A DNA stretch of 22,951 nucleotides from a virus. Both the position numbers and the translations under genes were made by a program. This document shows, one piece after another, positions 9,459 through 21,628 of this stretch; position 1 is the stretch's first letter, and each line of letters opens with the position of its first letter. Under the pieces are notes generated by a model. It worked only from the letters and a program-made list of their open reading frames with translations, had not been told where the DNA came from and did no database searches. The stretch is from the IMG/VR virus record IMGVR_UViG_3300043467_000379, positions 1 to 22,951 of that record; one strand, given 5' to 3'.

Positions 9459-11540
9459 ATGGCCCGTAAGTTTTTAACCCCAATTGATTTAAACAAATTA
9501 GAATTACAAAATGCAAGAATACAAAACTTAGCCACTGCTCCAGCAGACCCTACAGTTGGTCAAATTTATTATGACACAGTACTGGGATACTTACGCACTT
9601 GGAGCGGTTCTGCATGGCAAGCAGCAGGCACACAAGGAACTACTGGTGCTCAAGGAGCAACTGGTGCTGGTACTCAAGGAGTTCAAGGAACTGTTGGTGC
9701 TCAAGGAACAGTAGGTTCTCAAGGAGCAGTCGGTACTCAAGGCACCGAAGGTGCACAAGGAACTGTTGGTGCTCAAGGCACAGTAGGTGCTCAAGGAGCA
9801 GTTGGTACTCAAGGTACTGAGGGAACACAAGGAACTGTTGGTTCTCAAGGAACTCAGGGAACACTGGGTTCTCAAGGTACACAAGGAACTGTTGGTTCTC
9901 AGGGCACTCAAGGAACATTAGGAGCGCAAGGAACAGTAGGTTCTCAAGGCACTGATGGAACTCAAGGAACATTAGGTTCTCAAGGAACTGACGGTGCACA
10001 AGGTACTCAAGGAACTGTAGGTTCACAGGGTGTACAAGGTACTCTTGGAGCACAAGGTGCTGAAGGTTCATTTGGTGGTATTACAGTTGGATACACATTC
10101 AGTACTAGCACAACTATGTCAGACCCAGGCGATAATTTTGCTCGTTTTAATAATGCTACATTAGCCTCAGCAACCATTTTTGCATTGGATGATAATCCTT
10201 CTGATGGTAACTATGATGTTTCTAATTTCTTAACCACTATTGATGATTCAACATCTACAATCAAGGGTCACGTAAAAGTATCTAAGAAAAATGATATTTC
10301 TACTTTTGCTCTTTATACAATTTCTGGTGTTACAGATGAATCACCAAATTGGTTTAGTGTTAACGTTGCTTATGTTTCTGGTAACGGAACCTTTAGCAAT
10401 AACGATGAACTTTTATTTACATTTGCTCGTACTGGTGATGCTGGTGCTACTGGTTCTCAAGGAACACAAGGAACACTGGGTGCACAAGGCACGGTAGGTG
10501 CACAAGGTACTCAAGGAACTCTAGGCTCCCAAGGCACAGTAGGTGCACAGGGAACACAGGGAACAGTTGGATCTCAAGGAACCCAAGGAACTGATGGAGC
10601 CCAAGGAGCAGTTGGTTCTCAAGGCACACAAGGAACTGAAGGTGCTCAAGGAGTTCAAGGAACTGTTGGTTCTCAAGGAACTCAAGGAACTCTAGGTACT
10701 CAAGGTACTGATGGAGCCCAAGGCACAGTAGGTGCACAGGGAACAGTCGGTGCTCAAGGTGCTGTAGGTACCCAAGGTACTCTTGGTTCTCAAGGTACTG
10801 ATGGTACTCAAGGTACTCAAGGTACGTTAGGTTCTCAAGGAACTGTAGGTGCTCAAGGCACAGTAGGTGCTCAAGGCACAGTGGGTTCACAAGGAACTGT
10901 AGGTTCTCAAGGAACTGAAGGTGCTCAAGGTACTCAAGGCACAGTAGGTGCACAGGGAACTGTTGGTGCACAAGGTACATCTGGTCTTGATGGAGATAAG
11001 TACTCCACAACCTCTACAACATCATTTACATTAGGAACTTCTGGTTCTCAAACAATTACGGTTACAGATCTAGCAGTTGATTACTCTGTTGGTCAAGACA
11101 TCACTGTTGCATATGATGTCTCTAACATTCAATACGGTACTGTAAGTTCTTACAACCCTGGAACTGGCGCCCTTGCATTTAATAAAACCAGCAAAGTTGG
11201 TACTGGAACATACGCTTCATGGACAGTAAATCTATCTGGTGCTGTCGGTGTTGCTGGTGCTCAAGGAACTACTGGCGCCCAAGGAACAGAGGGTGCTCAA
11301 GGTACCTCTGGTCAACTTGGAACTCACGCAGAGACTATTACTCCAGTATCTCCATATTCAGCAACAACTTTCACAATTACACACAATCTTGGAACACGAG
11401 ATGTGTTAGTAACTGTACAAGATGCTACTTATAACGAGGTAGTTACTGATGTAATTGCATCAACTACATCTGCTGTAACTATCGGATTTGCAGTGGCTCC
11501 ACAATCAGGTGAAACTTATCGGGTCGTAGTAAAGGCTTAA
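9459..11540 (+). CDS. Collagen-like tail fibre protein, long
   Basis: 693 residues, start with AAGGAG at 9444-9449. Order: residues 1-56 are an attachment-type segment with VGQIYYDTVLGYLRTWSGSAW. Residues 57-204 are collagen-like Gly-X-Y repeats. Residues 205-326 are a globular beta domain (starts FGGITVGYTF). Residues 326-509 are a second collagen-like rod. Residues 510-592 are another beta domain, 593-621 a short rod, and 622-693 a C-terminal ITHNLG-type tip. The triplets are mostly [18 protein letters not shown] and GTE, so they are Thr/Gln-rich and contain no proline. Collagen-like fibres are trimeric and bind host surfaces. The internal globular domain is clearly paralogous to one in the 400-residue fibre downstream. 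Highly repetitive DNA makes this gene prone to slippage and assembly errors. Confidence 0.92.
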   Translation: MARKFLTPIDLNKLELQNARIQNLATAPADPTVGQIYYDTVLGYLRTWSGSAWQAAGTQGTTGAQGATGAGTQGVQGTVGAQGTVGSQGAVGTQGTEGAQGTVGAQGTVGAQGAVGTQGTEGTQGTVGSQGTQGTLGSQGTQGTVGSQGTQGTLGAQGTVGSQGTDGTQGTLGSQGTDGAQGTQGTVGSQGVQGTLGAQGAEGSFGGITVGYTFSTSTTMSDPGDNFARFNNATLASATIFALDDNPSDGNYDVSNFLTTIDDSTSTIKGHVKVSKKNDISTFALYTISGVTDESPNWFSVNVAYVSGNGTFSNNDELLFTFARTGDAGATGSQGTQGTLGAQGTVGAQGTQGTLGSQGTVGAQGTQGTVGSQGTQGTDGAQGAVGSQGTQGTEGAQGVQGTVGSQGTQGTLGTQGTDGAQGTVGAQGTVGAQGAVGTQGTLGSQGTDGTQGTQGTLGSQGTVGAQGTVGAQGTVGSQGTVGSQGTEGAQGTQGTVGAQGTVGAQGTSGLDGDKYSTTSTTSFTLGTSGSQTITVTDLAVDYSVGQDITVAYDVSNIQYGTVSSYNPGTGALAFNKTSKVGTGTYASWTVNLSGAVGVAGAQGTTGAQGTEGAQGTSGQLGTHAETITPVSPYSATTFTITHNLGTRDVLVTVQDATYNEVVTDVIASTTSAVTIGFAVAPQSGETYRVVVKA
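9627..10070 (+). repeat. Collagen-like Gly-X-Y coding repeats, first rod
   Basis: About 49 Gly-X-Y triplets encoded by degenerate 9- and 18-base units built on CAAGGAACT and GGTGCT/GGTTCT. The triplet register is broken once at residues 64-73 ([10 protein letters not shown]), where one residue is missing. The same interrupted motif occurs in the downstream fibre. Confidence 0.9.
10434..10985 (+). repeat. Collagen-like Gly-X-Y coding repeats, second rod
   Basis: About 61 consecutive Gly-X-Y triplets, the longest rod in the window, with no proline or lysine. Two stretches are identical in DNA sequence to the downstream fibre gene: 10560-10591 matches 12809-12840, and 10762-10789 matches 12858-12885. 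Confidence 0.9.
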
Positions 11541-11543
11541 TAC

Positions 11544-11825
11544 GTGAGTAAAAGAGCCCTCGTACCTATCAACGTACTTGCCGTAGGAACTCAACCTACA
11601 GGTAGGTACGTTGGAGATATCTATTACAATACAGAAGCAAGAAATGTCTATGTATTTGATGGGGTTGAGTGGCTTGAAATTACAACAAACGTTTCTGCAG
11701 ATATAGTTGAGGGTGGGGATGAAGTTGATGGTTCTGACACCGTAACAGGTGTAGCCGATGGAGGAGACGAAGCAGGTGGCAGTGATGTATACACAAGTTC
11801 CTATGATGGTGGAGGAGTAGTCTAA
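11544..11825 (+). CDS. Small tail protein related to the fibre N-terminus
   Basis: 93 residues from GTG 11544, four bases after the long fibre stops. No strong ribosome binding site is visible, so coupling to the upstream gene is likely. Residues about 5-45 ([41 protein letters not shown]) resemble the first 55 residues of the long fibre, sharing a leading FLTPI/LVPI strand, GD/GQ-IYY, a short hairpin and a G/S-x-x-W ending. The C-terminal half is low-complexity and acidic ([23 protein letters not shown]). This may be a stand-alone attachment domain or a connector between fibres. Its stop overlaps the next start (TAATG). Confidence 0.68.
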
Positions 11826-13027
11826 TGTCAGTAACAATCAAACTTCGTAGAGGTACTGCATCGCAATGGACATCAAATAATCCAACACTTGCTGCTGGTG
11901 AAGTAGGAACAGAGACAGATACTGGTAAATTTAAAGTTGGTAACGGATCAACTGCTTGGAACTCTCTTGCATATGGTGGTCTTCAAGGTATTCAAGGTGT
12001 TCAAGGAGTACAAGGTGTACAGGGCACTCAAGGAGTACAAGGTGTACAAGGCGTACAAGGCGTACAAGGCGTACAGGGTGTACAAGGATTGCAAGGGACT
12101 GTTGGTGCACAAGGTGCTGATGGAACTCAGGGAACTCAGGGAACTCAAGGTACTTTAGGATCTCAAGGAACTCAAGGCACTCAGGGCACGCAGGGAACTG
12201 ATGGAACTCAAGGTACTCAAGGAACTCAAGGAACTCAAGGCACTCAAGGAACTCAAGGCACTCAGGGCACTCAGGGCACGCAGGGAACTGATGGAACTCA
12301 AGGTACTTTAGGATCTCAAGGAACTCAGGGAACTCAAGGCACTCAAGGAACACTTGGAACTCAGGGTGCTACAGGAAACTTTGGTGGAGAAACTCATGAA
12401 TATAATTTCTTAACTAATACAGAAAATACTGATCCAGGTAGTGGAAATTTAAAATTTAATAATGCAACTATCTCTAGTGCAACTGCGTTGTACATAGACA
12501 ACCTTGATTTTGCTTCAAATGACATTTCACAACTACTACAAACAATTGATGACTCAACCTCTGGAATTAAAGGAACTATCAAGTTTACCGAAGTTGGAGA
12601 CGCAAACAGTTTTGCATTCTTTCAAATTACTGGTGCTCATACGCACGAAAGTGGTGGAGCATACTTTAACGTCCCAGTTGCTCATGTAACAGGAACTCTG
12701 TCAGTCATTAATAATGACAATGTATACGTAACCTTTGCTCGTGTTGGTGACAAGGGTGATACAGGCGCTCAAGGAACTCAGGGCGTTCAAGGAGTACAGG
12801 GCGTTCAAGGAACAGTTGGATCTCAAGGAACCCAAGGAACCGATGGAACCCAAGGAACTGTAGGTACCCAAGGTACTCTTGGTTCACAAGGTACTGATGG
12901 AACTCAAGGAGCAACTGGTGCTGGTACTCAAGGAACACAAGGAACAATTGGATCACAGGGAACTGCAGGCACTTCGCCATCAGGCAGTGCTACTGTTGCT
13001 GATGTCTTAATGCTAGGTGGAATGTAA
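11825..13027 (+). CDS. Collagen-like tail fibre protein with Mtd-type N-terminus
   Basis: 400 residues. Residues 1-52 ([20 protein letters not shown], then [20 protein letters not shown] and [11 protein letters not shown]) match the small N-terminal domain of phage major tropism determinant and similar fibre proteins, which anchors the fibre or aids trimerisation. Residues 52-186 are Gly-X-Y repeats, initially GVQ and then GTQ. Residues 186-307 are a globular beta domain paralogous to residues 205-326 of the long fibre (shared FNNAT, TIDDST, IKG and FAR landmarks). Residues 307-383 are repeats again. The protein then ends abruptly with [13 protein letters not shown], with no folded tip domain. 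Its stop codon touches the stop of the opposite-strand operon. Distal truncation is possible. Confidence 0.9.
11978..12382 (+). repeat. Collagen-like repeats with exact internal duplications
   Basis: About 45 triplets. Exact 9-base tandem units occur near 12048-12075 (GGCGTACAA). A 42-base block at 12176-12217 is repeated identically at 12266-12307 (90-base offset). A 33-base block at 12142-12174 is repeated at 12295-12327 (153-base offset). Both offsets are multiples of 9, so the Gly-X-Y register and reading frame are kept. Confidence 0.9.
12743..12973 (+). repeat. Collagen-like repeats, distal rod of second fibre
   Basis: About 25 triplets following the globular domain, including the same register break ([10 protein letters not shown]) as the long fibre. 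It includes the two segments identical to the long-fibre gene (12809-12840 and 12858-12885). The only charged start is [10 protein letters not shown]. Confidence 0.85.
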
Positions 13028-13759
13028 CTAAAAAAGTTCTGTACTACCGTTATGTATCTGGCTGTACTGCGCTGCTTCTTGTAAAAACTTTATAGGTTTA
13101 TATATCTGCGGTTTTACCGTAAACGTATTAAACTTTATTTGGTTTTCTTCTTGTTTCATTCTAAAGTTAAAAATATACCAATCTATAGGGCAATTAATTC
13201 CTTTAGATTCAACATCCTTTATTGCTTTTTCTGCACCACGTCTGCTTACAGCATATCCTGCACACGACCACTGTTGATATGAAAGACATATATAGTCTTG
13301 ATACACATCGTGTTCTAAAGGATTGTAAGCAAACAAAGAATCATCAGGAACAAAAAATGAAAAGAAGTCCCAGACAGGCATAAGTTCACTCATATAAATA
13401 TTTGCAATATTTTTAAAATTTCTACTTATTACTATGTCATCTTCAAAAATAATTAATGTGTCGTATTTAGATTCTAAAAACTTTTTATACGCCAAGTAAT
13501 TACTTGCCCAAACTCCTACAACTCCAGAACTTGGTGGGAAGGTCTCTCCTGGCTTACAGAAGTCGGTAACAGTGTTTACTTTAAATTCAGGTTTCTTACT
13601 TAAGAACTCTGTTGCTTTTTCGGTTGTATTTAAATACACGGTCTCAGAACCAAGACGAGGCAAGAATGACATAGATTTTAAAATGCCTTCGTAAGATTTG
13701 TTCCTTAATTCATTTCCAGTATCAGTATGAAAGACCTCAAAGCAGGCGTTATCTAGCAC
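13028..13759 (-). CDS. Glycosyltransferase, family 25-like
   Basis: 243 residues, last gene of the minus-strand operon. It starts at GTG 13759, overlapping the methyltransferase stop. Features match the GT25 family (lipooligosaccharide and procollagen galactosyltransferases). There is an early ELRNKSYEGILKSM segment, then GVWASNYLAYKKFLESKYDT leading to the acidic metal/nucleotide-binding motif IIFEDDI at residues 103-109. CAGYAVSRRGAEKAI follows at 166-180 and a PIDWYIF motif at 191-197. The length is normal for a GT25 domain. It probably transfers a hexose from a nucleotide sugar. The acceptor could be host surface glycan or phage fibre protein and cannot be read from sequence. Its stop abuts the fibre stop with no spacer. 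Confidence 0.82.
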   Translation of the reverse strand: MLDNACFEVFHTDTGNELRNKSYEGILKSMSFLPRLGSETVYLNTTEKATEFLSKKPEFKVNTVTDFCKPGETFPPSSGVVGVWASNYLAYKKFLESKYDTLIIFEDDIVISRNFKNIANIYMSELMPVWDFFSFFVPDDSLFAYNPLEHDVYQDYICLSYQQWSCAGYAVSRRGAEKAIKDVESKGINCPIDWYIFNFRMKQEENQIKFNTFTVKPQIYKPIKFLQEAAQYSQIHNGSTELF

Positions 13760-14286
13760 TTCTCAATCCATACCTGATAACCAGACTCAATCATTGTGTA
13801 CTCGCCCTTACAGAGGTTAAGAACGCAATCCACGCCCCTCTTAGGCTCTCTGTACTCTCCTCCGCCATAATTCCAGAGGTAGTCATCAAATGCCATCACC
13901 CCACCTGATTCCAGGTGCCTAAAGCCATTCAAGCCATCTATAGCGGTCTGCAGAGCGGTGTGGTCGCCATCTATGTATATGAAGTTATATGAACTAGCGC
14001 CCTTTAAGAAGAACTCATCACTGGTCATCTTGTGCTTTAAGATTCTTCCATCCTTTGGGAATCTTGAATCGTAGTAAGCCTCTACTGAAACAAAATCCAA
14101 AGATTCATGGGCGACTTCTTCGCTACCCTCCCACGTATCCACATCATCTAGATATTCGATCTCTCGATTATTAAGGAGCCACTGCGTGGCGTCTCCTGTG
14201 TAGGTGCCGATCTGCAGTGCACGAAGTGGAACACTTGGCACATGTCTGAAGTACTTCTCTACATCTTTAAACCAATTAGGAAACAT
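13753..14286 (-). CDS. Class I SAM-dependent methyltransferase
   Basis: 177 residues, start overlapping the TPR gene's stop (TAATG). It resembles the Methyltransf_24 group often found in surface-glycan clusters. Motif I, which binds S-adenosylmethionine, is ALQIGTYTGDATQWLL at residues 23-38. The acidic residue after strand 2 is in DVDTWEG (48-54). The YIDGDHT segment (104-110) and GGVMAFDDYLW (128-138) follow as in that family. The substrate is probably a sugar or glycan, judging by neighbours. The compact size suggests a stand-alone catalytic domain. A DNA methyltransferase is unlikely, since no NPPY/DPPY or PC motif is present. Confidence 0.82.
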   Translation of the reverse strand: MFPNWFKDVEKYFRHVPSVPLRALQIGTYTGDATQWLLNNREIEYLDDVDTWEGSEEVAHESLDFVSVEAYYDSRFPKDGRILKHKMTSDEFFLKGASSYNFIYIDGDHTALQTAIDGLNGFRHLESGGVMAFDDYLWNYGGGEYREPKRGVDCVLNLCKGEYTMIESGYQVWIEKC

Positions 14287-14849
14287 TAGTTGAACAACTT
14301 CATATTGTTAAGACATCCATTCACATACTCTTGAGACATCTCATAATTATCTAACAGATGTTCAAACAGAATCTTACTCTCATCTCTACGCCCAATCCAC
14401 CAACCAGCAACAGCCTTCTCAAATAGTAAACAGTATGAGCCGTTGTATTCAACATACCCTGGCAGTGGCTGATTATAGGTAGTAGTAGCAAACAACAGAC
14501 CTAGTTCAGCATAGGTATAGCACTCTTGGTACTCCTTATTTCGTTCTTTAATTCTACAGAGCAAAAAGTATGCCTCTGGTCTATTTGGTAGATAAGTAAT
14601 AGCCTGCATGATGTTGTTGTATATGGTTCGATTTCTATCTCCTTGAGCACCCCAACACAACGCCATCTTTAACAGAGAGGTGTAGGTAATTAGAGGGTGT
14701 GTTTTATACCCATACTCAGCAGCCCTTAAATAAAATCCAGCAGCCGATGCGTATTGCAGTTGTTCTTCGTAGGCGATAGCAAGATTAAAATTATTCTCAA
14801 CATCAACTGGATTCTCAGCCAGTTTTAAAGTCAACTCTTTAACGTCCAT
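14286..14849 (-). CDS. TPR-repeat protein of glycan cassette
   Basis: 187 residues, nearly all helical. It opens with a helix pair NPVDVENNFNLAIAYEEQLQ / YASAAGFYLRAAEYG that follows the TPR pattern (small residues at 8 and 20, AEY at the end of helix B). Further pairs follow: NRTIYNNIMQAITYLPNRPE / AYFLLCRIKERNKEYQECY, then another around the FEKAVAGWWIGRRDE segment. TPR proteins next to glycosyltransferases often scaffold the enzymes or recognise protein acceptors. There are no catalytic motifs. It overlaps both neighbours (11 bases with the upstream gene), so the operon is translationally coupled. Confidence 0.78.
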   Translation of the reverse strand: MDVKELTLKLAENPVDVENNFNLAIAYEEQLQYASAAGFYLRAAEYGYKTHPLITYTSLLKMALCWGAQGDRNRTIYNNIMQAITYLPNRPEAYFLLCRIKERNKEYQECYTYAELGLLFATTTYNQPLPGYVEYNGSYCLLFEKAVAGWWIGRRDESKILFEHLLDNYEMSQEYVNGCLNNMKLFN

Positions 14850-15840
14850 AAGACATAGCCTCCGTAATCATTCCGTTGACAACCTTCTTAGGGACCTCAA
14901 GAACAAAGGCGCAATTATCTTGTACACCGAAAGTTAAAACCAAATTCTTCTTTATGATTGCAGCACCTACACAGAATTCAATAGGCGTATCTAAAAATGA
15001 AAAGGAAGAGGTAATACCAACAAAGTTAAATTCTTTGTCCCACACAATCATTCGATGTCTGTAGATAGAGTCCTTTTGATTTAAATAATTTTTCCATAAT
15101 TTTACTTCATGAGTAAAAGCAATATAGTAATCGCCCCAAGCAATTACATTTGTACCACCACGTTGATCAGGAGAAATTGGTGGAGTTTCTTTTACTAGTA
15201 CCTGCTTACATTCAGACTTATCAGGATTAGCCCAAACAATTTCGGTAGGCATAGCCCACTTAACAAAATGATAAGGTTTGTCAAGAATCGGCATCCAATT
15301 CTTTTCACAGTAGGACGTAACATCTACAGGAGGCGGGATACGAACTCGTTGAACTTCTTTGGCTGTCCAATTCTTTTTATCTAATTCAATTTTAGAGTAC
15401 TCCATGCGACCTTGCCCATTGGGCGTGGTATCACGCCGTACCCCGATCAGGTAGTAGTTACCATCCCACTGAGTAATGCGGACATCCTCTTCACCAACAA
15501 ACTCCCAGATAGGAGGTACATTAAATTTAGAGTAATCAACTTCAGTAAAATTTATCAAATTATAATTTTTATCAAGACGACCTAGATAGTTGGTCGTAAC
15601 TAGCCGTTGATCTTTTTCAGGATGTAGATAGGAGAGTGGTCCCCAAGGACTAAAAAATCTTTGATCTTTTTCGGAGTGATAGAGGGTGTAATTTACATGC
15701 CTAATATTTACGAGAATATCCCCATCATCATCAACAAAAATTGATGGGTTCATTAAGCCCATACCAGAGGTAGTTGAGTGGGGTAGAATTAGGGGCGCTA
15801 ATTTGCCCCCTTGAGATACTGATGTATGCACCAAATTCAT
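14839..15840 (-). CDS. Five-bladed beta-propeller, glycosidase/phosphorylase-like
   Basis: 333 residues, first gene of the minus-strand operon. The repeated blade pattern and motifs resemble the GH130/GH43-type five-bladed propeller superfamily and related proteins in glycan clusters. These are MNPSIFVDDDGDILVNIR (30-47), GEEDVRITQWDGNYYLIGVR (116-135), CEKNWMPI (178-185), RGGTNVIAWGDYYIAFTHE (227-245), and EFCVGA with FGVQDNCA (288-311). Acidic residues at E117/E118/D119 and E179 are candidates for catalysis. Whether it cleaves, phosphorolyses or transfers sugars is not decidable. It could prime, trim or bind surface polysaccharide. No signal peptide is seen, so it acts in the cytoplasm or is carried in the virion. 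The ribosome binding site is weak (AAAG). Confidence 0.7.
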   Translation of the reverse strand: MNLVHTSVSQGGKLAPLILPHSTTSGMGLMNPSIFVDDDGDILVNIRHVNYTLYHSEKDQRFFSPWGPLSYLHPEKDQRLVTTNYLGRLDKNYNLINFTEVDYSKFNVPPIWEFVGEEDVRITQWDGNYYLIGVRRDTTPNGQGRMEYSKIELDKKNWTAKEVQRVRIPPPVDVTSYCEKNWMPILDKPYHFVKWAMPTEIVWANPDKSECKQVLVKETPPISPDQRGGTNVIAWGDYYIAFTHEVKLWKNYLNQKDSIYRHRMIVWDKEFNFVGITSSFSFLDTPIEFCVGAAIIKKNLVLTFGVQDNCAFVLEVPKKVVNGMITEAMSYGR

Positions 15841-17808: not shown

Positions 17809-17820
17809 AAGGTTTTGATC

Positions 17821-18543
17821 ATGAAAAACATTGTTTTTATAAATCGTATTCCTATTCCTAAAGAATACTACCCTACCCCTGCAAGTAAACATATACCAGA
17901 GTGGTACAAAAACACCCTTTCATACAAAGACGGTGAAAAAAAAAGAATAGGGCAAGATTTAAAAACTCCTAGTACTATAAAAAAATGTATTCCAATTTTT
18001 GATGCTATTACTAGCGGTTACATAATTTACAGTCATTCTGACGTACACGTTTCACAACGTCTCTTAGATAATGGTGAACTACATCCTTATTATCAATGGT
18101 CAAGTGGTCCTACAATTGAAATGCACCCATATTGGCAAGGAGAATTACATCCCGCAAAAATGACAAATAGCACTACTCTCAACATAGATTATCCAAAATG
18201 GGTTAATCCTTGGGGTATAAAAACGCCTGCAGGGTACTCTTGTTTTATTACACAACCATTACATAGAGAATCTGTGTTTACTATTTTGCCAGGAATTGTA
18301 GATACGGATACTTATACTGCAAATATTAATTTTCCGTTTGTTTTAAACAACCCAGAATTTGAGGGTACGATCTTGGCTGGAACTCCAATTGCTCAAATTA
18401 TTCCTTTTAAAAGAGAGACTTGGAAAATGTCTTATGGTAATGAAAAAACTTTAGAAGAAAATATAAATGCTACACAATTAATTGCTAGTAAATTTTTTGA
18501 TGCATACAAAAGAACCTATTGGAATAGAAAAGAATACAAATAA
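17821..18543 (+). CDS. DUF6065-like conserved phage protein
   Basis: 240 residues from ATG 17821. An in-frame TTG at 17815 is less likely because the AAGG at 17809-17812 would then be only 2 bases away. The layout resembles a family I know as DUF6065-like. It has PTPASKHIPEWYKN early, then TIKKCIPIFDAITSGYII, HPYWQGELH, NPWGIKTPAGYSCFITQPLH (HP.Q and NPW...GYS motifs), PGIVDTDTYTANINFPF and finally GTPIAQIIPFKRETWKM. The many His and aromatic residues and beta-strand pattern suggest a cupin-like or jelly-roll fold, but no function is established. It overlaps the next gene by TAATG and is strongly AT-biased in codon use. Confidence 0.72.
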   Translation: MKNIVFINRIPIPKEYYPTPASKHIPEWYKNTLSYKDGEKKRIGQDLKTPSTIKKCIPIFDAITSGYIIYSHSDVHVSQRLLDNGELHPYYQWSSGPTIEMHPYWQGELHPAKMTNSTTLNIDYPKWVNPWGIKTPAGYSCFITQPLHRESVFTILPGIVDTDTYTANINFPFVLNNPEFEGTILAGTPIAQIIPFKRETWKMSYGNEKTLEENINATQLIASKFFDAYKRTYWNRKEYK

Positions 18544-18755
18544 TGGATAAACCAAATATTAAACCTGTTAGACCCTGGGATTTAATGAATCCAAATATAC
18601 CAAAAGTTTCTGACGAGATACAAGAAGAAAGATTTTCAATATGTTTATCTTGTCCTAAACTTATTCAAATAACTAAAACTTGTAGCGAGTGCAAATGTTT
18701 TATGGTGTTAAAAACACGTTTACTAAATGCTACTTGTCCAATTAATAAGTGGTAA
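18543..18755 (+). CDS. Zinc-ribbon-like small protein
   Basis: 70 residues with six cysteines at 34, 37, 47, 50, 52 and 65: CLSC, then CSECKC, then a lone CP near the end (ATCPINKW). Two CxxC knuckles are enough for one zinc site. The RPWDLMNPNIP start, KTRLL segment and terminal CPINKW recur in short phage proteins often found beside DUF6065-like genes. No catalytic role is apparent. It may bind another protein or nucleic acid. ATG overlaps the previous stop. Confidence 0.75.
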   Translation: MDKPNIKPVRPWDLMNPNIPKVSDEIQEERFSICLSCPKLIQITKTCSECKCFMVLKTRLLNATCPINKW

Positions 18756-18756
18756 A

Positions 18757-19575
18757 ATGAATAACAAAACTTATTATTTTTTGGCTGGGATGCCTAGGTC
18801 TGGTAACACATTACTTTCTGCTTTATTAAATCAAAATCCTAAGATTTATAGTAGTCCACTTAGCCCTGTATGCGAACAGATGTATAGGTTAACCTTAACA
18901 TTACAAGATGCAACTGGATTAAGAAATGAAGAAAATAGTGAAAGAACAAAGTATATATTAAACAATTATATGGACAATTTTTATTATGATATAAATAAGC
19001 CTATAATTTTTGATAGGGAAAAGTATTGGTTAACTCCACCTAATTTAGATGTAATACTTAACTACATAACTCCTAATCCAAAAATAATTTTTACAGTTAG
19101 AAACTATGTAGATATATTAGCCTCATACATCAATTTAAGTTTGGCTGATATTGAATATGAAATAGAAAATCAACATCTCTATATTAAAGATCTCCCACGG
19201 TATGACTTGATTGCGGAGTTTCTTAGTAGAACTAATTCAAGTTTAGATCTTAGTATGCTCTGTGTTAGAACAGGATTAAAAGAAGAGTATAAAAAATATG
19301 TGCACTTTGTTGACTACGAGGACTTAGTAACTTCTCCAGAACAAACTTTAAAAGATTTGTATTTCTTTTTAGAAGAAGAACCTTTTAACCATGATTTAAA
19401 TAACATTCAAAAACTTGAAATAGATCGTGACGATAAAGTAAATCAAAACACTCTTACTCATTTTGTAAGTCCAAGTATCATTCCATCTCAACTAAAAGGT
19501 TCAGAAATTTTTAGTGATTCTATATTAAAAAAATACTCAAATATGAATATATGGAAAAATAATGTCGATAAATAA
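18757..19575 (+). CDS. PAPS-dependent sulfotransferase
   Basis: 272 residues. The frame is open further upstream, but ATG 18757 directly follows the zinc-ribbon stop and starts the conserved fold (MNNKTYYFLAGMPRSGNTLL). The 5'-phosphosulfate-binding loop GMPRSGNTLL is at 11-20. The 3'-phosphate-binding Arg and Ser are in FTVRNYVDILASY (R115, S123, the classic R-x7-S spacing). A later YEDLV..P..T segment (187-197) matches cytosolic/Sulfotransfer_3-type enzymes. The family moves a sulfo group from PAPS to an OH or amine of a sugar, peptide or small molecule. Here the acceptor is unknown. The PAPS-making kinase homolog lies two genes downstream. Confidence 0.87.
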   Translation: MNNKTYYFLAGMPRSGNTLLSALLNQNPKIYSSPLSPVCEQMYRLTLTLQDATGLRNEENSERTKYILNNYMDNFYYDINKPIIFDREKYWLTPPNLDVILNYITPNPKIIFTVRNYVDILASYINLSLADIEYEIENQHLYIKDLPRYDLIAEFLSRTNSSLDLSMLCVRTGLKEEYKKYVHFVDYEDLVTSPEQTLKDLYFFLEEEPFNHDLNNIQKLEIDRDDKVNQNTLTHFVSPSIIPSQLKGSEIFSDSILKKYSNMNIWKNNVDK

Positions 19576-20194
19576 AGTGTCAAATAAAGAACAAGAATTA
19601 TTTAATTTTAAATTACATAAAATTTTTGATGTGTCTGCTATTCAAAATCACGTATTAAAATACAATAATGAGTGGGATATAAATACTAACAGACAAAGAA
19701 TGTTTCCAATGCATAGTGCAACGACCTCATACCATTTTGTACAAACAACAAACTTTAGATTTGGAGATGTTTATAAACCAAGATTTACTGACACGGATCC
19801 TAAAATGTGGTCTTTAATTTATCCAATTATTAGCGAATTTGAAATAAATGTAAATGGAAAAGTAGGAAAAACTTTATTTATTTTATTACCAAAAGGAAAA
19901 GAAGTTGAACCACATGCTGATGGTGGAGACTACTTAGACCTTATTAGAAGATTTCATATTCCTATAATAACAAATCCACAAGTAGAATTTAAAATATCTG
20001 ATGAAACTATAAATATGAAAGTTGGAGAATGCTGGGAAATAAACAATAACCGTGTTCATTCAGTTTCTAACAAAGGTGACTCAGATAGGATTCATCTTTT
20101 ATTTGATATCATGCCCAACTGGGTGATAGAGTCTGCTGGAAAAATAGATACTTCTAAAAGAGAAACTCAAATTACAGATCCAAATCACATATAA
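19562..20194 (+). CDS. 2OG-Fe(II) oxygenase, Asp/Asn beta-hydroxylase-like
   Basis: 210 residues, start overlapping the sulfotransferase by 14 bases. The double-stranded beta-helix iron site is visible: H118 and D120 in EPHADGG, then H166 in GECWEINNNRVHSVSN, with R176 in SDRIHLLFDI positioned to bind 2-oxoglutarate. RRFHIPIIT (129-137) is also typical of the aspartyl/asparaginyl hydroxylase family. Members hydroxylate Asp/Asn side chains of proteins or free metabolites, or modify lipids. All metal ligands are present, so it is probably active. It acts in the cytoplasm, and its substrate is unknown. Coupling to a sulfotransferase suggests hydroxylate-then-sulfate chemistry (inference). Confidence 0.85.
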   Translation: MSINKVSNKEQELFNFKLHKIFDVSAIQNHVLKYNNEWDINTNRQRMFPMHSATTSYHFVQTTNFRFGDVYKPRFTDTDPKMWSLIYPIISEFEINVNGKVGKTLFILLPKGKEVEPHADGGDYLDLIRRFHIPIITNPQVEFKISDETINMKVGECWEINNNRVHSVSNKGDSDRIHLLFDIMPNWVIESAGKIDTSKRETQITDPNHI

Positions 20195-20204
20195 GGAGAA
20201 CAAA

Positions 20205-20960
20205 ATGATTATACAAATTATAGGACTACCAGGTGCAGGGAAAACAACCTTGGCTAAGGCTCTTATGGAACACATAGATGCTGTGCATTTAAATGCTGAC
20301 CAGGTTAGATCAGATTTAAATAAAGATTTAAAATTTTCACCTGAAGATAGACAAGAAAATTCTAGAAGATTGGGAGCAGTTGCCCGTCTTTTAAAAGCAC
20401 AAGGTAGAGTAGTCATTGTTGATTTTGTTTGTCCTACAGAAAAAACAAGAAAAGCATTTGGTAAACCAGATCTATTAATTTGGGTAGACAGATTATTTGA
20501 AAGCAGGTATGGAGATACAAACGATATTTGGGTAAATCCTACAGAGTGGGATGTACGTCTAACTTTAGACATGACACTAGAAGATGCTATAGAGTTAATT
20601 ATTCAGAAAAGTGGGTTACATGATTGGAAAAAACCAACTACATTAATGCTTGGAAGATATCAACCATGGCATGAAGGACACTCGGCTCTTTATTCTGAGG
20701 CACAAAATAGAACTCCTCAAGTAATGATAGGGGTAAGGAATACTTACAAAACTAGCAGTAAAGATCCTTTAACTTTTTCTGAAGTAAAAAATTACATTAA
20801 AAAAGAACCTGAAATGAAAGACTCGATGGTTATTAGATTACCCAATATAACAAACATAGTATATGGTAGAGATGTTGGATACAAAATAGAACAAGTTAAG
20901 TTGGGGGATGAAATTGAGGTTATTAGCGCTACTCAGAAACGCAAAGAACTGGGTTTATGA
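20205..20960 (+). CDS. Fusion: APS kinase domain + nucleotidylyltransferase domain
   Basis: 251 residues with AAGGAG upstream. The N-terminal domain (1-135) is APS-kinase-like: P-loop GLPGAGKTT (7-15), LNADQVRSDLNKDL (29-42), then FSPEDRQENSRR (44-55) and VVIVDFVCP (69-77) in the order seen in CysC. APS kinase phosphorylates adenylylsulfate to PAPS. The later KGLY/FTG lid segment of bacterial CysC is replaced by WVDRLFESRYGDTNDIWVNP. The C-terminal domain (145-251) is an HxGH nucleotidylyltransferase: LGRYQPWHEGHSAL with H156 and H159, then PNITNIVYGRDVGY and the ISATQKR signature. This half resembles NMN/pantetheine-phosphate-type adenylyltransferases. ATP sulfurylase belongs to the same broad superfamily. 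I have seen this pairing in marine phages, but activity is unproven. Confidence 0.85.
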   Translation: MIIQIIGLPGAGKTTLAKALMEHIDAVHLNADQVRSDLNKDLKFSPEDRQENSRRLGAVARLLKAQGRVVIVDFVCPTEKTRKAFGKPDLLIWVDRLFESRYGDTNDIWVNPTEWDVRLTLDMTLEDAIELIIQKSGLHDWKKPTTLMLGRYQPWHEGHSALYSEAQNRTPQVMIGVRNTYKTSSKDPLTFSEVKNYIKKEPEMKDSMVIRLPNITNIVYGRDVGYKIEQVKLGDEIEVISATQKRKELGL

Positions 20961-21154
20961 AACACCTTAAATTAGTTCACGAAAACTATTTTAAGCACAT
21001 GGTAGAGGCGTGGCTCATAGTGGCTACTCTTTTATTTTCAGCCGTTGTTTGTTTTATTCACTCTATTTTTCCTTTTACATTTCAAACAACCGCCTCAACT
21101 CGTTTAACGTGGATTCTTAACCGCACTAACCAAAGGCAGGATAATAATGATTGA
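20957..21154 (+). CDS. Small membrane protein, DUF6356-like
   Basis: 65 residues, ATGA overlap with the kinase fusion. After a short N-terminal HENYFKHMVEAW segment comes one hydrophobic helix (about 17-40, LIVATLLFSAVVCFIHSIFP), then PFTFQTTAS and a polar tail. The FKHM..A....L....IH..FPF.F.TTAS pattern is that of DUF6356, a small membrane family seen near capsule and sulfur-activation genes in marine bacteria and phages. Its function is not known. It would insert in the host inner membrane. Coupling to the fusion enzyme suggests it belongs to the same accessory pathway. Confidence 0.75.
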   Translation: MKHLKLVHENYFKHMVEAWLIVATLLFSAVVCFIHSIFPFTFQTTASTRLTWILNRTNQRQDNND

Positions 21155-21422
21155 GAAGTTTAAGAAGTGGTTTTTTAAATCAAATAAACATTTTCAAATT
21201 CGTTATAACACCAAAGTAGGCAATGGAGATTTAGTTTGGCGAATAATTACAGACGAAGGTGAAAAACTGGCAAGTCAACTTGAAATTAATGGTTATGTCT
21301 ACGGTGAGTCCAGTTTTGTTGACGGTGAAAGAAAGATGAACATAGCATGCGATGGCAAGATTTATTGGAATGGCACAGCAGTAGAAATTGTTGCTGGCAA
21401 GCGACCTGATTTATTGCTATGA
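21147..21422 (+). CDS. Conserved small hypothetical protein
   Basis: 91 residues overlapping the membrane-protein gene by 8 bases, with AGGA about 7 bases before the ATG. A basic amphipathic start (MIEKFKKWFFKSNKHF) is followed by a compact beta module: DLVWRIITDEGEKLASQLEI, GYVYGESSFVDGERKMNIAC and GKIYWNGTAVEIV. I have seen similar small proteins in aquatic phages, always without function. The stop overlaps the DUF2061-like start (ATGA). Not secreted and no membrane segment. Confidence 0.68.
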   Translation: MIEKFKKWFFKSNKHFQIRYNTKVGNGDLVWRIITDEGEKLASQLEINGYVYGESSFVDGERKMNIACDGKIYWNGTAVEIVAGKRPDLLL

Positions 21423-21628
21423 AAATTGCTAAATCTAGGTCTTTAGTTAAAGCCCTTACTTGGAGAGTAGTAGCCGTCTTTGTTACTTTTGTTTGTATTT
21501 ATGCTTTGACTGGCGAGGCTAAATTAGCAGGCGCAGGAACAGTACTAACTAATGGCATTAACTTTGTTTTATACTATTTCCACGAAAGAGTGTGGGACAA
21601 AGTTAGTTGGGGCAGATTGCACCGTTAG
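21419..21628 (+). CDS. Small membrane protein, DUF2061-like
   Basis: 69 residues. KSRSLVKALTWRVVAVFVTF (residues 5-24) and the terminal YYFHERVWDKVSWGR match the DUF2061 pattern (K-x-x-TWR-hydrophobic helix ... lYyHERvW.ki.WG). Two short hydrophobic stretches (15-31 and about 37-52) suggest a hairpin in the membrane. The function of the family is unknown. The ATGA overlap with the preceding gene places it in the same operon as the kinase fusion and DUF6356-like protein. Confidence 0.82.
   Translation: MKIAKSRSLVKALTWRVVAVFVTFVCIYALTGEAKLAGAGTVLTNGINFVLYYFHERVWDKVSWGRLHR

Follow-up and report, generated by a model that had tools for sequence, protein, structure and literature searches.

A candidate phage sulfation cassette pairing a sulfotransferase with a compact APS kinase-nucleotidyltransferase fusion

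Animal PAPS synthases (PAPSS1/2; PAPS, 3'-phosphoadenosine 5'-phosphosulfate) carry an N-terminal kinase domain and a C-terminal HxGH nucleotidyltransferase domain, and the HxGH motif is needed for activity in human PAPSS1 (PMC11697783; this and the other papers cited here are quoted from the available portions of their text). In the giant virus Moumouvirus australiensis, a 642-aa predicted bifunctional sulfate adenylyltransferase (SAT)/adenosine 5'-phosphosulfate (APS) kinase, Ma457, stands in one sequence-predicted glycan cluster with the sulfotransferase Ma461 (PMC10117803). Reports on freshwater and trench viromes describe APS-kinase-like genes as well (PMC10914622, PMC9529941), among them 62 cysC in freshwater phages, where phage transcripts exceed bacterial ones under some conditions (PMC10914622). 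These auxiliary metabolic genes, which probably overlap with the family described here, are read as assimilatory CysC, and the available portions of the reports do not mention a nucleotidyltransferase fusion, DUF2061 or a sulfotransferase. Here, a locus of the virus record IMGVR_UViG_3300043467_000379 was analysed over 22,951 bases (the window), in which a sulfotransferase gene (ST) and an oxygenase gene (OG) are followed by a fusion gene (KIN) with an APS-kinase-like half and a nucleotidyltransferase half (NT), and further downstream by a DUF2061 gene. Open reading frames (ORFs) were taken by a simple longest-ORF rule and not with a gene finder; this rule dropped some genes in GC-rich loci. 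The features concerned are:

18757..19575 (+): ST, PAPS-type sulfotransferase, 272 aa (PF13469 E 9.7e-17; PF00685 E 6.9e-13; PHROG 27463 E 1.9e-72)
19562..20194 (+): OG, 2-oxoglutarate (2OG)-Fe(II) oxygenase of the Asp/Asn-hydroxylase type, 210 aa (PF05118 E 5.5e-16)
20205..20960 (+): KIN, fusion gene, 251 aa
20205..20627 (+): KIN N-terminal APS-kinase domain, about aa 1-141 (PF01583 E 5.4e-20; structure model; APS contacts)
20628..20960 (+): KIN C-terminal HxGH nucleotidyltransferase domain (NT), about aa 142-251, about 110 aa (PF01467; structure model)
21419..21628 (+): DUF2061, predicted membrane protein (PF09834 E 9e-18)

The preferred reading, to which a probability of about 0.6 is given, is a compact phage sulfation cassette in which KIN makes PAPS for ST, NT being perhaps an ATP sulfurylase. 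The NT half would convert ATP and sulfate to APS, the kinase half would turn APS into PAPS by phosphorylating its 3'-OH, and ST would use PAPS to sulfate a hydroxyl of its target, which could be a surface glycan, a lipid, a small molecule or a virion protein. At the membrane, DUF2061 may assist the sulfate-activating enzyme, perhaps by supplying sulfate or by anchoring it. KIN would in this way be a miniature PAPS synthase, performing with 251 aa the job of the human enzyme of about 620 aa. It shares with PAPSS1/2 the domain order as well as the fold and APS contacts of the kinase half, whereas its NT, at about 110 aa, falls outside PF01747. The locus resembles that of Moumouvirus australiensis in bringing viral donor synthesis and a sulfotransferase together, but there the virus is a giant one, the enzyme is far longer, and DUF2061 goes unmentioned in the available portions of the source. 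Viral cysC genes and the giant-virus pairing of SAT/APS kinase with a sulfotransferase are already known from these sources. In the open-licence PMC literature searched, no description was found of the compact fusion of kinase and NT, of DUF2061 as its partner, of an ST-KIN operon in phages or of a CysH operon lacking a known ATP sulfurylase; nor was any report found that links a phage APS kinase with both a nucleotidyltransferase and a sulfotransferase, or that assigns DUF2061 a role with sulfate.

The original prediction, made from the window, had named ST, OG and an APS-kinase-like fusion in this order, and the ORFs and profile scores confirm both the identities and the order. ST exceeds the Pfam gathering scores of Sulfotransfer_3 (PF13469, 62.4 bits vs 27) and of PF00685 (49 vs 22), and nine aligned proteins, that of the window among them, all have R14, G16, T18, R115 and S123. 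We take these residues to be the PAPS-binding motifs, and the assignment as a PAPS-type sulfotransferase is upheld. So is that of OG as an Asp/Asn-hydroxylase-like oxygenase, with 59.2 bits vs 22.6 for PF05118 (Asp_Arg_Hydrox) and the H-A-D, distal H and R of an HxD...H...R site in its translation. The fusion stands as far as its kinase half is concerned (profile, fold and APS contacts); its second half had been left without a name, and DUF6356 and DUF2061, farther along the run, had not been included. ST and OG overlap by 14 bp, and a gap of 10 bp separates OG from KIN, whose start is preceded by an AAGGAG stretch. A scan for promoters and terminators stayed at chance level (26 promoter-like sites vs 20.5 expected, and 2 terminator-like sites vs 2.2 expected).

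The kinase half scores 72.4 bits against APS_kinase (PF01583, gathering score 21.1), the aligned part covering aa 2-84 only. In the model of the whole protein (predicted local distance difference test, pLDDT, 91.5), aa 1-140 form a complete APS-kinase fold that superposes on 5cb6 with Z 19.0, a root-mean-square deviation of 1.9 A over 140 residues and 34% identity. The first 30 structural matches (Z 16.2-19.0) are all either APS kinases or domains of that type within bifunctional proteins and fungal sulfurylases, with gluconate kinase next (Z 15.9). In CysC of M. tuberculosis, APS is held by Asp480, Arg483, Phe492, Arg497, Phe576 and the P-loop Lys456 (PMC4373884). The equivalents among 41 fused proteins are D32, R35 and K13 (each 41/41) and F44 and R49 (each 40/41), with the same spacing from the Asp as in that enzyme (+3, +12, +17), and both phosphosulfate-holding arginines of CysC are retained in the aligned family. 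Position 102, matched to the second adenine-stacking Phe through a low-scoring stretch of the alignment, is Phe in 37 and Tyr in 3 of the 41 proteins; an equivalent of the lid lysine Lys562 was not located in the KIN alignment. The predicted step from APS to PAPS is well supported by model and residues, and KIN is likely to have APS kinase activity.

The association of ST with KIN was followed through viral loci collected with ST, KIN, OG or an Hsp20 control gene as bait; the contigs are fragments, and a missing neighbour is weak evidence. In the ST-bait set, KIN was found in 25/79 viral loci, and all 25 KIN genes start 3-1175 bp downstream of ST on the same strand. These counts use three sulfotransferase-like clusters, namely that of the window (Sulfotransfer_3), that of L029 (Sulfotransfer_2) and that of L042 (no Pfam match), and near-copies, including two of the window, are among the 25 loci. 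Scans with single sequences found ST in 4 loci, DUF2061 in 8 and the PHROG 7084 gene described below in 9. The ST-KIN order is seen in two distant KIN lineages, the second being 37-42% identical to the KIN of the window, and in the KIN-bait set ST lies no more than 1.5 kb upstream in 18 of the 60 loci whose upstream sequence is long enough. According to a quick KIN tree, the presence of ST changes 20 times, and well-supported branches force at least 13 of these changes if rows of unknown state are taken as lacking ST. Since KIN lies downstream of ST on the same strand in 25/25 cases, transferase and donor synthesis appear to recur as an operon, as the original prediction had proposed, and the PAPS made by KIN probably goes to ST, a destination supported by gene order. 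The recurrence of the same genes in other viral contigs argues that the cassette genes are not together by chance. Of the co-occurrence of all three genes in related phages, which had been put forward as a check, the ST-KIN pair was borne out; ST, OG and KIN occur together in only 4/79 ST-bait loci, 2 of these being near-copies of the window. By inspection, one locus of the distant KIN lineage (L342) holds ST-KIN among T4-like structural genes, with a fusion of cytidylyltransferase-like and cupin-like parts between the two genes (L342:9218-9979).

The most constant viral partner of KIN is DUF2061, and not ST or OG, the companions to which attention had originally been drawn. The protein of the window scores 64.9 bits against PF09834 (gathering score 23.1). 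Of 117 KIN genes, counted as distinct KIN proteins among which near-copies remain, 92 are followed within 1.5 kb by a DUF2061 gene on the same strand; among the first 99 KIN ORFs, copies included, DUF2061 comes immediately after KIN in 68. DUF2061 was present in 15/25 KIN-bearing vs 0/54 KIN-free loci of the ST-bait set (p 6e-10) and in 22/22 vs 9/58 loci of the Hsp20-bait set (p 7e-13); these P values assume that related contigs are independent and so overstate the significance. The Hsp20 gene was picked from KIN neighbourhoods, so that KIN is common in that set (22/80), and some of its contigs are shared with the KIN set. Two groups of loci are parts of single contigs (L004, L084, L088, L259 and L267; L086, L089, L261 and L266).

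In relation to the bacterial CysN-CysC/CysD systems of sulfate activation, DUF2061 occurs as a CysN fusion in Methylocystis (L119), Methylosinus (L188/L229) and the genomes G201 and G094 (in the last truncated by the end of the contig), and as a CysN-CysC fusion in G069, with CysH and CysD alongside. Genes of the cys group were near DUF2061 in 3/20 alphaproteobacterial contexts, which had been chosen from the matches with long reading frames favoured. Unlike these bacterial systems, 102 viral stretches gave no tblastn match to CysN or CysD. Because of the CysN fusions and the pairing with KIN, DUF2061 appears to be tied to sulfate activation, although its role there is weakly indicated. DUF2061 proteins are also listed in an iron-responsive/Fur-regulated table of Caulobacter and in an SsoR/iron table of Shewanella (PMC3751524, PMC12442407), and one has been linked to polymyxin resistance in Pseudomonas, so that, judging from the available portions of these sources, the family does not serve sulfate only. 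Several viral loci (L016, L019, L021, L022, L025 and others) carry two or three different DUF2061-like genes, one adjoining KIN and the rest apart.

The NT domain is matched by CTP_transf_like (PF01467) in 38/38 aligned cases (maximum E 10), and its model (pLDDT 87.5) has the fold of a HIGH-type nucleotidyltransferase. Near-invariant motifs are G-R-x-Q-P-x-H-x-G-H, a G-R-x-V-G-Y stretch and a final S-A-T-x-x-R; G150, R151, Q153, P154, H159, G221, R222, S241 and R246 are conserved in 41/41 proteins, and H156 and G158 in 40/41. The domain therefore holds HxGH (H156, G158, H159), a weak marker, as the motif is common to the whole nucleotidyltransferase class. Its structural neighbours are phosphopantetheine adenylyltransferase (PPAT, Z up to 10.1), glycerol-3-phosphate cytidylyltransferase (9.0) and nicotinamide mononucleotide (NMN) adenylyltransferase (NMNAT, 8.8), and since these values lie close together the fold is uninformative on the substrate. 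The best curated model is the NMN adenylyltransferase NF003786 (E 2.7e-7), with 30.1 bits vs a cut-off of 397, while TIGR01526, the NadM/NadR test, gives 15.9 bits vs 341; the best solved chain is the NMN adenylyltransferase 2qjt (E 2.6e-8). The ATP sulfurylase Sat (8a8g) ranks 31st in Foldseek (E 0.23) and is not among the 50 matches listed in the second structural comparison. The idea that HxGH, GRD and S-x-T-x-x-R all lay onto Sat was dropped, as only S-x-T-x-x-R aligns in hhalign. NT as the missing CoaD of the host was likewise rejected: CoaD is over its cut-off in 17 of 19 KIN-bearing genomes, the weak matches being confined to G036 and G203.

The context that speaks to NT comes from bacteria. 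Six genomes belonging to the taxonomic order of the ALOHA genome G001 were compared, and 5/6 have the kinase and NT as split genes. The gene order CobA-CysI-CysH-DUF2061-kinase-NT holds in 5/5 pair-bearing alphaproteobacterial genomes; CbiX precedes the CobA-CysI-CysH operon in all four whose stretch reaches there, and the contig of the sixth genome stops just past CysH. A PAPS/APS reductase (PAPS_reduct) is present in 6/6. CysD (TIGR02039) was found in none of the six, two weak matches (E 3-4e-4) coinciding with CysH, and Sat (PF01747) was found in none of five of the six, so that four of the five partial assemblies with the kinase-NT pair and CysH show neither. CoaD is over its cut-off in G001, G168 and G202 and below it in G036 and G203, which indicates that the assemblies are incomplete. 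The CysH of L121 has CC and CxxC pairs, as iron-sulfur APS reductases do. On this context, the assignment of NT as an ATP sulfurylase, forming APS from ATP and sulfate, is a tentative one. It is more doubtful still, though worth considering, that NT represents a third kind of ATP sulfurylase of about 110 residues, apart at family level from Sat and CysDN, which would be a separate gene in the CysH operons of streamlined bacteria and kinase-fused in many viruses as a 251-residue PAPS synthase, with DUF2061 as membrane partner.

Among 190 alphaproteobacterial genomes, KIN members at E <1e-40 occur in six; the weaker matches mostly cover the kinase part of long frames only, as CysN-CysC would give. 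The NT domain was found at E 1e-12 in 2/398 genomes of the phylum, both previously found in this analysis. In SAR11, many genomes carry kinase and NT as two genes. By inspection, the kinase gene lies beside EgtB/EgtD-like (ergothioneine) genes in some SAR11 loci (L142 and others), and near a Rieske oxygenase and a methyltransferase in other SAR11 genomes. A Sulfotransfer_3 gene is present in 13/19 KIN-bearing genomes, on the KIN contig itself at 2.8 kb in G006 and 9.3 kb in G128, and in SAR11 locus L111 a Sulfotransfer_1 gene lies near a fused KIN in a region that reads like surface polysaccharide.

In viruses, the scan of IMG/VR for KIN yielded at least 600 related stretches, the best 80 of which are 61-99% identical to it along almost the entire protein. 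Seven GenBank phage records have a KIN match at E 1e-5, with at least 80% of the length covered in five, and the five cultured-phage KINs show 36.6-39.8% identity. The cyanophages S-SKS1, S-SRM01 and S-SCSM1, whose sulfotransferases are related to ST (24-31% identity), are not among these seven. In Stenotrophomonas phage Bhz60 (L002:7553-9379), the homologue of KIN is flanked by a NADAR gene and a DNA methyltransferase, with neither DUF2061 nor ST.

A number of observations weigh against the cassette reading. In the Hsp20 set, ST is not significantly enriched beside KIN (4/22 KIN-bearing vs 4/58 KIN-free loci, p 0.2); a link by simple co-presence is unsupported, and for this reason the ST-KIN case rests on gene order. 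Fifty-four of the 79 ST loci lack KIN in the available stretch, and 48 of these 54 have at least 3 kb downstream. The two cultured-phage KIN contexts that were read contain no DUF2061, ST, CysH or CysD. In the kinase half, the lid is shorter than in APS kinases, PAPSS1/2 included, position 52 is Asn in the window and in only 4/41 proteins in all (Gln or His in 37/41), and the score falls below the NCBIfam apsK cut-off (TIGR00455, 68.6 bits vs 138.7), which makes it a divergent APS-kinase-type domain rather than a CysC equivalog. For NT, the Sat profile PF01747 matches 1/38 domains (E 0.018) and not that of the window; hhalign pairs NT with ten Sat proteins over 14 columns (E 0.011, probability 4%) and with 17 CoaD proteins over 71 columns (E 1.6e-5, probability 79%). 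By profile, NT is accordingly placed outside the Sat family and nearer to CoaD and the NMN adenylyltransferases. Among the bacteria, G036 has the CysH-DUF2061-kinase-NT operon plus a Sat gene, the latter on a contig whose neighbouring genes read, by inspection, as pyruvate kinase and surface-sugar genes; G002-G007 have CysD or Sat, G004-G007 of these carrying a fused KIN; and G108 and G128 have a fused KIN with no matches to CysD, Sat or CysH. The original prediction had further held that the phage could sulfate its target independently of host PAPS. This would require NT to be an ATP sulfurylase, which the context suggests, but the claim is unsupported, as no sequence or fold test shows NT to be one. 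Taken as a whole, that prediction holds for the operon of transferase and donor synthesis, and not for independence from host PAPS or for the part given to OG.

The alternatives differ mainly in what NT does. KIN could be an APS kinase only, with NT in a regulatory or other role and APS supplied by the host ATP sulfurylase, the phage boosting the last step of PAPS synthesis. Such an arrangement would agree with the place of NT outside the Sat family by PF01747 and hhalign, and with the Methylocystis kinase-only homologue that adjoins CysD-CysN; it also has a precedent in Entamoeba, where the sulfurylase-like domain of an APS kinase modulates the kinase and is reported to have lost substrate binding (PMC13213808). 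The active-site motifs of NT are, however, nearly invariant (40-41/41) and not degenerate, and NT is encoded separately in SAR11 and in the CysH operons, which makes this alternative unlikely, though it is to be taken seriously. If NT instead adenylylates another compound (a phosphate of nicotinamide or of a sugar, for example) and the product is then 3'-phosphorylated by the kinase half, the outcome would be a 3'-phospho-adenylyl cofactor or a part in NAD metabolism. The NMN adenylyltransferases as best NT match, the generic fold (PPAT, NMNAT) and the NADAR gene of phage Bhz60 point that way, but the NMN adenylyltransferase models remain far below their curated cut-offs, and the CysI-CysH-DUF2061 operons, the DUF2061-CysN fusions and the ST-KIN order would be left unexplained; this option is considered improbable.

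Previous reports have placed viral cysC in sulfate assimilation (PMC10914622, PMC9529941). An auxiliary metabolic gene for sulfate assimilation towards cysteine, with ST as an unrelated neighbour, would fit the non-significant ST enrichment in the Hsp20 control set. It fits poorly with KIN lying directly downstream of ST in 25/25 KIN-holding ST-bait loci, and with the ORFs of 273 viral stretches, in which CysH was not found with a hidden Markov model of 10 proteins (the rest of those genomes, where CysH could lie, being outside this search) and CysD was not found with a single-protein model that is a weak probe. It is regarded as very improbable. Should the cassette reading be true, many viral cysC genes would be self-contained donor-making enzymes, some of them tied to ST, rather than copies for host assimilation, and virome surveys would need re-reading in terms of sulfation instead of sulfur assimilation. 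The same reading would close a gap in those bacteria with sulfate-reduction genes in which neither known ATP sulfurylase was found, and provide a functional lead for DUF2061.

OG is a less regular neighbour. It was found in 18/80 KIN-bait loci (within 1.5 kb upstream of KIN in 12/80) and in 1/80 Hsp20-bait loci, and from the OG side KIN was present in 14/19 loci, with OG directly upstream in 9, near-copies of the window counted; OG as a required partner of KIN was set aside. The proposal that OG makes the hydroxyl to be sulfated is unsupported in view of the 4/79 loci holding all three genes, and such a role is speculation. Oxygenases of the 2OG type occur in 69 of 116 viral stretches scanned (152 ORFs, contig copies included), and Trp-halogenase-type genes in 19 of the same stretches. 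One of the latter, L025:9198-10772, is a tryptophan-halogenase family gene near KIN (PF04820 E 2.6e-102), and 18 other viral loci hold one. The frequency of 2OG oxygenases and the presence of halogenase-type genes beside them suggest that the regions around KIN carry a changing set of modifying enzymes.

The window carries tailed-phage structural genes (PHROG matches to terminase and major head protein), and the cassette belongs to a nearly abutting + strand run in its right part, in the order PHROG 7084, DUF6171, ST, OG, KIN, DUF6356, a 91-aa gene and DUF2061. The remaining members of this run are:

17815..18543 (+): PHROG 7084 protein, 242 aa, upstream neighbour (PHROG 7084 E 3.7e-50)
18543..18755 (+): DUF6171 Cys-rich protein, 70 aa, upstream neighbour (PF19668 E 5.3e-6)
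20957..21154 (+): DUF6356 small protein, 65 aa, overlapping the KIN stop codon (PF19883 E 1.2e-16)
21147..21422 (+): 91-aa protein between KIN and DUF2061 (no Pfam match)

Across 105 loci, genes of the PHROG 7084 type are present in 24, those of the 91-aa type in 14, and those of the DUF6356 type in just 9, near-copies of the window counted in. On the - strand, positions 13028-15840 hold a glycosyltransferase family 25 gene and a methyltransferase (Pfam), a TPR-like gene (by inspection) and a 333-aa gene. This block sits between the cassette and two long fibre-like proteins of collagen-like glycine-rich repeats (9459-11540 and 11825-13027), and may also decorate virion or host surfaces.

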